Source: Thermococcus sp. P6 (GTDB lineage: Archaea > Methanobacteriota_B > Thermococci > Thermococcales > Thermococcaceae). From it: a DNA stretch of 64,000 nt. Each line of letters opens with the position of its first letter. The stretch's first letter is position 1. The notes beneath the pieces are model-generated. The model was not told where the DNA came from and did not search any database. It saw nothing but the letters and a program-made list of their open reading frames with translations. Of this stretch, positions 5,095 through 57,811 are shown in pieces. The position numbers and the translations under genes were made by a program. The stretch spans positions 1-64,000 of the forward strand of contig NZ_CP015104.1 of NCBI RefSeq assembly GCF_002214525.1. The letters are read 5' to 3'.

Positions 5095-5226
5095 GCTTTC
5101 CCCGGTTTTGCCCGTTTTTTAAATTCCAGCGGTTTTCCCTTCTTTACGGGGCGGAATCTTCCCGCCTCTCATAGCGATGGTTCTCCATGGAAGAACTCTC
5201 AGTGGCTATCCTATGACTTCCAAAAA

Positions 5227-5349
5227 CTTTAAATTACTCGCCTTCCTTTTCCACTCCATGCCCGGTGGTCGTTTTTGGTCCCGGTGAAGTTCCCTTCTTC
5301 TCGGGCTTAGCTGGGGGTTTCCTTTTGGATGGAAAGGGAGGTGTTTTAA
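5227..5349 (+). promoter_or_regulatory. trpS promoter and 5' leader with possible SD-masking hairpins
   Basis: TATA element ACTTTAAATTA centred near 5231 predicts transcription start at about 5257-5258, giving a leader of about 92 bases before trpS. The SD is GGGAGGTG (5336-5343). TCCCTT (5291-5296) can pair with AAGGGA (5334-5339) over the SD. CCTTT (5321-5325) can pair with AAAGG (5333-5337), and TTTCC (5318-5322) with GGAAA (5331-5335); these pairings exclude one another. The stretch 5095-5226 holds nothing I recognise. Confidence 0.45.
5258..5287 (+). CDS. Putative leader peptide MPGGRFWSR upstream of trpS
   Basis: A nine-codon ORF, MPGGRFWSR then TGA, with its ATG at the predicted transcription start, so it would be translated leaderless. 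Its seventh codon is Trp and the next gene is tryptophanyl-tRNA synthetase. It has no SD of its own, as expected for a leaderless start. A ribosome waiting at the Trp codon (5276-5278) would reach roughly the bases that can pair with the trpS SD. The ORF and promoter spacing are seen; the regulatory role is inference. A short ORF with one Trp can also occur by chance. Confidence 0.3.
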   Translation: MPGGRFWSR

Positions 5350-6501
5350 ATGGACGACTTTAAGGTCACCCCATGGGACGTTGAGGGTGTCGTGGACTAC
5401 GACAGGCTTATAGAGGAGTTCGGAACGAGCCCCCTGACGGATGAACTGCTCGAGAAAACCGCAATGCTCACGAAAAGTCAGTTGCCGATCTACTTCAGGA
5501 GGAGGTTCTTCTTCTCCCACAGGGATTACGACCTCGTTTTGAAGGATTACGAGAGGGGAAACGGATTCTTCCTCTACACCGGCAGGGGTCCAAGCGGGCC
5601 GATGCACATAGGCCACATAATACCCTTCTTCGCCACGAAGTGGCTTCAGGAGAAGTTCGGAGTGAACCTGTACATCCAGATCACCGACGATGAGAAGTTC
5701 CTCTTCAAGGAGAGGCTGAGCTTTGAGGACACGAAGAGGTGGGCTTACGACAATATACTCGACATAATAGCGGTGGGCTTCGATCCCGACAGGACGTTCA
5801 TCTTCCAGAACAGCGAGTTTACCAAGATTTACGAAATGGCCATACCCATAGCGAGGAAGATAAACTACTCTATGGCCAGAGCCGTCTTCGGCTTCACGGA
5901 TCAGAGCAAGATAGGGATGATATTCTATCCGGCCATACAGGCGGCTCCTACCTTCTTCGAGAGGAAGAGGAGTCTCATCCCGGCCGCCATAGATCAGGAC
6001 CCCTACTGGCGCCTGCAGAGGGACTTCGCCGAGAGCCTCGGCTATTACAAGGCCGCGGCTTTGCATTCGAAGTTCGTGCCCGGGCTGATGGGTCTCGAGG
6101 GAAAGATGAGCGCTTCGAAGCCTGAAACGGCCGTTTACCTCACGGACGATCCGGAGGAGGCGGGCAGGAAGATATGGAAGTACGCCCTAACCGGAGGGAG
6201 GGCCACGGCAAGGGAGCAGAGGGAGAAGGGAGGCAATCCAGAGAGGTGCGTCGTCTTCAAGTGGTTCGAGATATTCTTTGAGCCTGATGATAAGGCTTTG
6301 CTCGAGAGGTATCACGCGTGCAAGAACGGGGAGCTCCTCTGCGGTCAGTGCAAACGCGACCTCATAAAGCGCGTTCAGGAGTTCCTGAGGGAGCACCAGA
6401 GAAAGAGGAAAGAGGCAGAGAAGAAGATCGAGAAGTTCAAGTACACGGGCGAGCTTGCCCGGGAGCAGTGGGATAAGGCAATCCCGGAGCCGTTGAGGTG
6501 A
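5350..6501 (+). CDS. trpS: Tryptophanyl-tRNA synthetase
   Basis: Class I aminoacyl-tRNA synthetase of 383 residues, the archaeal/eukaryotic length class. Motifs are GPSGPMHIGH (HIGH at 86-89) and GKMSASKP (KMSKS-type loop at 252-256), with the archaeal AIQAAPTFFE and DQDPYWRLQRD segments that bind Trp and ATP between them. The C-terminal part holds a CKNGELLCGQCK segment and a charged helix. The ATG follows GGGAGGTG at 5336-5343. It stands alone, transcribed towards a convergent gene remnant. The leader may be regulatory (see neighbouring entries). Confidence 0.96.
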   Translation: MDDFKVTPWDVEGVVDYDRLIEEFGTSPLTDELLEKTAMLTKSQLPIYFRRRFFFSHRDYDLVLKDYERGNGFFLYTGRGPSGPMHIGHIIPFFATKWLQEKFGVNLYIQITDDEKFLFKERLSFEDTKRWAYDNILDIIAVGFDPDRTFIFQNSEFTKIYEMAIPIARKINYSMARAVFGFTDQSKIGMIFYPAIQAAPTFFERKRSLIPAAIDQDPYWRLQRDFAESLGYYKAAALHSKFVPGLMGLEGKMSASKPETAVYLTDDPEEAGRKIWKYALTGGRATAREQREKGGNPERCVVFKWFEIFFEPDDKALLERYHACKNGELLCGQCKRDLIKRVQEFLREHQRKRKEAEKKIEKFKYTGELAREQWDKAIPEPLR

Positions 6502-35595: not shown

Positions 35596-35684
35596 CGTTT
35601 TAAGTCCCCGGGAGAACTTCCCATGCGATGATGAGTGATGGGCGAACCGACCGATGAGGATGGAAAGGTGATCGCTGAGCAACC
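35596..35684 (+). ncRNA. C/D box sRNA gene A with own promoter
   Basis: C box ATGATGA (35628-35634), a 12-base guide GTGATGGGCGAA, D' box CCGA (35647-35650), C' box TGAGGA (35655-35660), a 14-base guide ending AAAGGTGATCG, and D box CTGA (35675-35678). A TATA element GTTTTAAG starts 30 bases before the C box (TTTTAA at 35598-35603). The RNA probably spans about 35622-35683. The D guide pairs over nine bases with the 3' end of 16S rRNA (CGATCACCT), which is also the SD-pairing site, so this may be coincidence. The D' target is unknown. Variant D' and C' boxes make it weaker than gene B. Confidence 0.65.
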
Positions 35685-35770
35685 CTTTTAAGGCCCATCC
35701 AAAACCTTTTTTGGGATGATGATTTCAGCCTTGTCTGAGGCTCGTGATGATGGAGTGACGGACTGACCGC
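35685..35770 (+). ncRNA. C/D box sRNA gene B, guide for two 16S rRNA sites
   Basis: A textbook archaeal C/D sRNA: C box ATGATGA (35716-35722), guide TTTCAGCCTTGT (12), D' CTGA (35735-35738), spacer GGCTCG, C' TGATGA (35745-35750), guide TGGAGTGACGGA (12), D CTGA (35763-35766). TATA CTTTTAAGG starts 30 bases before the C box, as in gene A. The D' guide matches archaeal 16S CAAGGCTGAAA and the D guide matches CCGTCACTCCA, by my recall of Thermococcales 16S. The fifth-base rule predicts 2'-O-methyl groups at equivalents of E. coli G902 and U1406. Confidence 0.85.
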
Positions 35771-54141: not shown

Positions 54142-54226
54142 GTTATTAACCATGGGATACAAAGACTCCGGGATGATGAGTCTGGAGCCCCCTGATGGAT
54201 GAGGAGGTTTCGCGGGGCTGACCGGT
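54142..54226 (+). ncRNA. C/D box sRNA gene C abutting the small coiled-coil gene
   Basis: C box ATGATGA (54173-54179), guide GTCTGGAGCCCC (12), D' CTGA (54192-54195), spacer TGGA, C' TGAGGA (54200-54205), guide GGTTTCGCGGGG (12), D CTGA (54218-54221). A TATA-like TTATTAAC begins exactly 30 bases before the C box, as in genes A and B. The D' guide is complementary to CTCCAGA, the form expected of a tRNA-Trp(CCA) anticodon loop. The D guide pairs over nine bases with 16S CGCGAAACC. The D box ends five bases before the next start codon. Bases 54058-54141 hold nothing recognisable. Confidence 0.8.
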
Positions 54227-57733: not shown

Positions 57734-57811
57734 TGGCGGGCCGGACGGGATTCGAACCCGCGGCCACGGGGTTAAAAGCCCCGCGCTCTAACCAGGCTGA
57801 GCTACCGGCCC
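57734..57811 (-). tRNA. tRNA-Lys (anticodon UUU)
   Basis: On the minus strand: acceptor GGGCCGG pairs with CCGGCCC; D arm GCUC...GAGC; anticodon arm CGGGG-CUUUUAA-CCCCG, anticodon UUU; T arm GCGGG-UUCGAAU-CCCGU (one G.U pair); discriminator G and an encoded CCA. No intron. An upstream TATA GCTTATAAGAG (about 57838-57848) predicts a start near 57818, typical for archaeal tRNA genes. Confidence 0.97.

Follow-up and report, generated by a model that had tools for sequence, protein, structure and literature searches.

A Trp-codon leader upstream of archaeal trpS as a candidate programmed +1 frameshift switch

The tryptophanyl-tRNA synthetase gene (trpS) of Thermococcus sp. P6 is preceded by a nine-codon open reading frame (ORF) containing a Trp codon, and the question raised by this locus is whether the leader senses tryptophan supply and, if so, how the signal would reach trpS. 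We explored it in a window of 64,000 nucleotides, the whole stretch of DNA analysed (contig NZ_CP015104.1, positions 1 to 64,000). An earlier note had proposed a Trp-sensing leader switch here; the positions it gave for the TATA box, the nine-codon ORF, the Trp codon and the TCCCTT and AAGGGA motifs were all correct on direct reading, and the locus reads as follows:

5220..5236, + strand: BRE (CCAAAAA) and TATA box (CTTTAAATTA), by direct sequence reading; a AAAAACTTTAAAT-type box is conserved
5258..5287, + strand: frame-0 leader ORF MPGGRFWSR and stop (ATG CCC GGT GGT CGT TTT TGG TCC CGG TGA), predicted leaderless, conserved in 83/83 Thermococcaceae leaders
5264..5269, + strand: internal Shine-Dalgarno (SD) motif GGTGGT, proposed frameshift stimulator; GGTG[AG]T in relatives
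5270..5272, + strand: three-base spacer CGT (E-site codon), NGY across Thermococcaceae
5273..5278, + strand: proposed slip site TTT|TGG, with UUU (Phe) in the P site and UGG (Trp) in the A site
5285..5287, + strand: frame-0 stop TGA, predicted exit under plentiful Trp-tRNA
5277..5363, + strand: +1 frame past the slip site, GPGEVPFFSGLAGGFLLDGKGGVLNGRL and a stop that overlaps the trpS start
5291-5296, + strand: TCCCTT, four bases after the leader stop, by direct sequence reading
5334-5339, + strand: AAGGGA, the proposed partner of TCCCTT, by direct sequence reading
5337..5343, + strand: trpS SD GGAGGTG; a GGaGGTg-type element is conserved in the alignment
5350..6501, + strand: trpS, tryptophanyl-tRNA synthetase, 383 aa (NCBIfam NF008924 tryptophan--tRNA ligase, 734 bits)

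Since the TATA box lies a median of 23 bp upstream of the transcription start site in T. kodakarensis (PMC4247193), transcription is predicted to start at about the leader ATG, and the leader ORF is probably leaderless. Positions 5095-5420 gave no Rfam 15 family match up to E = 5, and a near-match DNA search in plasmids found none. Elsewhere in the window, Rfam matches were the C/D box sRNAs sR1 (35624-35680), sR60 (35712-35768) and sR23 (54171-54223), and a tRNA-Lys (57737-57811).

Gathering trpS loci from the family Thermococcaceae provided 83 leaders, which were anchored on the trpS start. The conserved short Trp-containing ORF that the earlier note had looked to as support was present on alignment, in the form M-x-G-[GD]-[CRG]-[FL]-W-x-x-stop, in 83/83 of these leaders, which come from related genomes and so are not independent samples. 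Trp is invariant at codon 7 (83/83) and occurs at codon 9 too in 62/83; judged by this comparison, the conservation of the ORF and its Trp is far above chance. The distance from TTTAAA to the leader ATG was 29-30 nt in 75/83, the remaining 8/83 values reflecting the script's choice of a TTTAAA closer to the ATG. The ORF ends in TGA (73 leaders), TAA (7) or TAG (3), and one leader (L158) contains additional in-frame codons; this stop-codon variety and the in-frame insertion are as expected for a translated frame. The conserved ORF is most simply read as a putative Trp-tRNA sensor.

The tightest conservation in the leader is found at the nucleotide level. Among the 82 leaders in the nine-codon register, codon 3 is GGT (82/82), codon 4 is GGT or GAT (82/82) and codon 6 is TTT (80) or CTT (2), with TGG next, and the third-position T of codons 3, 4 and 6 is invariant. 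The resulting GGTG[AG]T fits the ribosome-binding consensus of T. kodakarensis, GGDGRD (PMC4247193), but sits within an ORF, and the gap between this hexamer and the slip codon is exactly 3 nt in all Thermococcaceae trpS leaders.

Frame 0 ends 2-4 codons past the slip site, the Trp codon counted, in 83/83 leaders and the -1 frame ends at varying places within 2-14 codons after TTT|TGG, whereas in 83/83 the +1 frame reaches the trpS start, staying open for 20-36 codons. Measured from the first trpS base, the +1 stop ends at 0 to +17 nt in 82/83 leaders and at +43 in L130; in 10 leaders that are one base short before trpS, it is a TGA directly abutting the trpS ATG. The probability that all +1 frames are open by chance, calculated over 13 representatives that share less than 60% identity within the segment, is 10^-5.9. 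Selection at the amino-acid level was sought in the +1 segment and not found (RNAcode-like z = -0.8), so that it is only the openness of the +1 frame that speaks for it, and what appears to be selected is this openness up to trpS, i.e. coupling. Both the GGDGRD-type SD within the leader ORF and the open +1 frame go beyond the earlier note. Two -1 readings of the Thermococcaceae leader were rejected on the same comparison of the -1 and +1 frames: a second upstream ORF from a TTG in the -1 frame (MALV..), an idea prompted by a TTG located 11 nt downstream from where GGTG begins, and a -1 hungry-codon shift.

In three loci of another Thermococci family (L179, L180, L181), the trpS leader differs (GTG ATC TTC TTG GGA TGG). 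It is leaderless by TATA spacing, and its -1 frame (G_GGA_TGG) is open to a trpS overlap in 3/3, which hints at a -1 version.

We regard it as very likely that the trpS leader responds to Trp-tRNA supply as a switch based on programmed +1 ribosomal frameshifting. The ribosome would initiate at the leaderless ATG (5258) and arrive at TTT|TGG; with ample Trp-tRNA, it would decode UGG and terminate at the TGA. With Trp-tRNA in short supply, the A site would stay empty at UGG, the SD GGTGGT, which precedes the P-site codon at a distance of 3 nt, would pair with 16S rRNA to form a strained complex, and tRNA-Phe would slip from UUU onto the overlapping UUU. Translation in the +1 frame would run 28 codons to the stop inside the trpS start region, and trpS would be translated by coupling, either because ribosomes terminate there and then reinitiate or because they are delivered locally to GGAGGTG. 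The sign of such a response fits physiology, Trp-tRNA scarcity leading to more TrpRS and more Trp synthesis. We infer the slipping, its dependence on Trp-tRNA and the coupling from what can be read directly in the DNA, namely the cassette, its frames, its Trp specificity and the set of genes behind it.

The cassette extends beyond the Thermococcales. When 62 more distant archaeal trpS loci, all from one scan of genome contigs, were scored, 16/62 carried GGTGRN or GGGGAT, then 3 nt, then YTTTGG, exactly in register. The +1 frame is trpS itself (fused) in 16/16 of these cassettes, and frame 0 is a short ORF, e.g. MTGDLLWP, MGEYLWL or MMGDRLWQR, each followed by a stop. In contrast, TTTGG sites without an SD among the distant trpS loci showed no such pattern. 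The slip codon in these other archaea is mostly CTT_T, and the L044-type cassette, GGTGAA TAT CTT TGG C, is close to the textbook prfB cassette. The carriers are MAGs named Thermoproteota/Crenarchaeota (L020-L026, L028), Geocrenenecus and Aigarchaeota-like archaea (L044, L050, L055, L061), Methanodesulfokora (L062), Pelearchaeum (L065, L067) and, in addition, L045.

The Methanodesulfokora cassette, seen in a single MAG and built on GGGGAT, has no ATG, GTG or TTG in the trpS frame between the upstream stop and the conserved N-terminal motif, and the next possible start codon lies 91 nt into trpS. Frameshifting looks obligatory for TrpRS there, unless the MAG is wrong, and the predicted trans-frame TrpRS would be expected to begin MMGDRLGSVSPWEV.... 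In archaea with the +1-trpS fusion more generally, TrpRS would be a frameshift product, and the occurrence of the cassette in several archaeal phyla or classes suggests an ancient alternative to attenuators and T-boxes.

Additional cassettes came from a family-wide pattern search. Before trpC, the pattern GGTGRN-NNN-TTT-TGG, with an SD-led frame-0 start and TrpC in the +1 frame, was present in 14/15 genomes with trpC, the one trpC without it being L213. Frame 0 is short (MTGDGFWPEQGN, then a stop); its upstream SD precedes the frame-0 start by 10-12 nt in the 11 script-scorable loci and can be seen in place in the other three. The predicted trans-frame TrpC would be expected to begin MTGDGFGLSRAI....

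Upstream of trpB2 (TIGR01415), an ATG precedes the first TGG by 18-24 nt in 65/68 leaders, each of which has between one and four serial cassettes, mostly two or three; L285/L286 are trpB2 loci without a cassette, and L256 is unmatched by the strict first-cassette pattern. The spacing between cassettes, scored regardless of frame, is 1 mod 3 in 108/112 cases over many distinct lengths. Each copy sits in the frame reached by the preceding +1 slip, and the chain ends at the trpB2 start: following the +1 shifts leads to a final stop at -1 to +20 nt of the start in 62 leaders (at +4, as GAATGA, in 53 of them) and into the trpB2 frame in 3. The trpB2 leader of Thermococcus sp. P6 itself (L277, C1:166560-167123) has two chained cassettes and a third out of register, and its second shift already arrives at the trpB2 start.

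Two further elements were observed in the trpB2 leaders. Most of them (L229-L296) contain a conserved ATTCCCTC..CTTTTGGGA motif, a short inverted repeat about 30-60 nt before trpB2, which is missing from the short two-cassette leaders. Around the predicted transcription start, a conserved GATGCNCCATGA contains a pair of ATGs that differ in frame, and the earlier one, close to the start site, opens a short ORF (e.g. MRHDGQE, then a stop) ending in GGAGTGA inside the SD of the first cassette.

A sodium-dependent transporter (NF037979) has the cassette in 12/13 close homologues, 9 of them with two copies and 3 with one or more, and its +1 stop falls just beyond the start codon. The transporter loci L340-L351 carry one or two Trp cassettes in the leader. 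That this protein carries Trp is a guess from the company of its gene. The P6 genome keeps the trpS cassette and the trpB2 leader, and a trpC search in it gave nothing above background (best match 22% identity, E 8.5e-4); Thermococcus sp. P6 is possibly a Trp auxotroph.

With trpC, trpB2 and the transporter under control of the same cassette as trpS, these genes would form a Trp regulon. We think it probable that this regulon (trpS, the trp operon, trpB2 and the transporter) depends for its control wholly on hungry-codon +1 frameshifting, trpB2 acting as a translational AND gate. Ribosomes would get to trpB2 only by shifting frame two or three times in a row, at one Trp codon after another; the probabilities of these shifts would multiply, sharpening the reaction to Trp starvation until it is steep and nearly all-or-none.

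A programmed +1 frameshift could also operate at a fixed ratio, the Trp codon being merely part of the slippery sequence, and comparative data indeed reveal a cassette, not a response. However, by its genomic distribution the cassette is to be regarded as Trp-specific: it is found before trpS, trpC, trpB2 and one transporter, with TGG every time. When AGGRGTGANNGYTTTT was followed by a non-G base, only 14 scattered matches were found in 94 genomes, near the reversed-pattern control and thus at background level, and cassette-like matches outside the Trp set (four genomes) lie inside genes and have neither a frame-0 start nor the leader architecture. Tandem TGG cassettes, moreover, make little sense at a fixed ratio, which we consider very unlikely.

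The +1 ORF could instead begin at a plain alternative start codon, leaving the frame-0 ORF as a by-product. On sequence alone this would be possible at trpC and, except in L062, at trpS, where suitable +1-frame codons exist: every GGTG-type trpS cassette contains, as part of that motif, a GTG that precedes TGG by 11 nt, and in most trpC cassettes an ATG precedes it by 8 nt. Yet the GGGGAT cassette of Methanodesulfokora has no start codon to offer in the trpS frame, and at trpB2 a plain start is ruled out for the second and third cassettes because their +1 frame, traced back to the preceding stop, lacks a start codon in 56/63 and 39/42 cases, respectively. The trpC SDs are positioned for the frame-0 start, the trpS leader ATG keeps a fixed distance to the TATA box, and the 3-nt SD-slip spacing is invariant, all of which argues against a by-product and makes a plain start very improbable.

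The earlier note had envisaged that a ribosome pausing on the Trp codon would shield TCCCTT, which could otherwise pair with AAGGGA and mask the trpS SD. Its sensing part, a TATA-positioned leader ORF with a Trp codon, is conserved; the masking part was not borne out. All 6 pairs are kept in only 2/62 gap-free aligned relatives, the modal number of pairs among these 62 scorable leaders being 3, and RNAalifold found no conserved structure (-1.5 kcal/mol at 37 C and 0 at 85 C). SD masking also fails to explain the third-position T, the internal SD, the open +1 frame, the in-frame archaeal fusions and the trpB2 tandems, every one of which is accounted for if ribosomes shift to +1 at the Trp codon, and we give masking very little credence. 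Weaker still is a TnaC-like nascent-peptide arrest sensing free tryptophan, which the short peptide might favour, given its conserved residues and the presence of Trp at one or two of its codons, but which is hardly credible with so short a peptide, variable residues 2, 4, 5 and 8, and constant features that are nucleotides at third codon positions.

Attenuators and riboswitches in Archaea were described in the 2014 T. kodakarensis transcriptome study as having no direct experimental support in vivo (PMC4247193). TK0271 is a transcription activator of the trp operon, and the paper on it leaves leader, attenuation and trpB2 unmentioned (PMC6737238). Our search of the open-access literature gave no report of a Trp frameshift cassette. 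If the frameshift reading is true, starved-codon frameshifting, known for decades with no recognised functional use for starvation-specific products (2016 review, PMC5009743), would acquire one, and Archaea would possess a ribosome-based amino-acid sensor. Archaeal ribosomes would then employ internal SD-stimulated +1 shifting, as RF2 does, serial frameshifts would be a way of sharpening a response, and TrpRS and TrpC annotations that start at an internal codon would need correction. A Trp gene set with a dedicated cassette makes the question directly testable in the genetically tractable T. kodakarensis.

Among known systems, bacterial trpL attenuation uses a short ORF with Trp codons to sense Trp-tRNA through a stalled ribosome. 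The trpS leader ORF likewise holds codons of the regulated amino acid; in contrast to trpL, no conserved alternative hairpins or terminator were found at the trpS leader, and the predicted readout is the frame, not RNA folding. Programmed frameshifting by an archaeal ribosome has been described for Sulfolobus fucA1 (PMC8211752), which differs from the Trp cassette in being a -1 shift at a slippery heptamer, with a possible stem-loop, in a single gene and with no amino-acid sensing; besides fucA1, a review of archaeal recoding lists a few predictions, among them a single +1 case from a virus of haloarchaea (PMC8211752). In hungry-codon frameshifting, observed in E. coli and mitochondria, an empty A site at a starved codon leads to slippage of the P-site tRNA (PMC5009743, PMC8211752); unlike what we propose for the archaeal cassette, this slippage is reported as an error or side effect, and of its use for starvation-specific products the 2016 review states that "no examples are known" (PMC5009743).

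The closest parallel is the autoregulatory +1 frameshift of bacterial release factor 2 (RF2, prfB), whose A-site UGA is a stop codon read by the product of that very gene and in which the shift occurs at CUU_U or, in a minority, at UUU_U, with an internal SD and the product carried by the +1 frame (PMC5009743). The Trp cassette shares with RF2 an early, short frame-0 ORF, an SD upstream of the slip codon, a slow A-site codon, a slip codon that re-pairs after the +1 shift (UUU_U or CUU_U, in Thermococcaceae and the other archaea), an SD-slip spacing that matches in the 16 other-archaea loci, and a product in the +1 frame, fused in 16 trpS and 14 trpC loci. It departs from RF2 in being archaeal and in preceding genes other than prfB, in having sense UGG rather than stop UGA in the A site, in a proposed signal that is Trp-tRNA and not a release factor, and in occurring before several genes and in tandem serial copies, while in the Thermococcaceae trpS leaders the +1 frame terminates where trpS begins and would be coupled, not fused. 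By analogy, the Trp cassette would operate in the manner of RF2 without being RF2; mechanically, RF2 offers a close precedent, and the new elements would be the sensor, the regulon and the serial logic.
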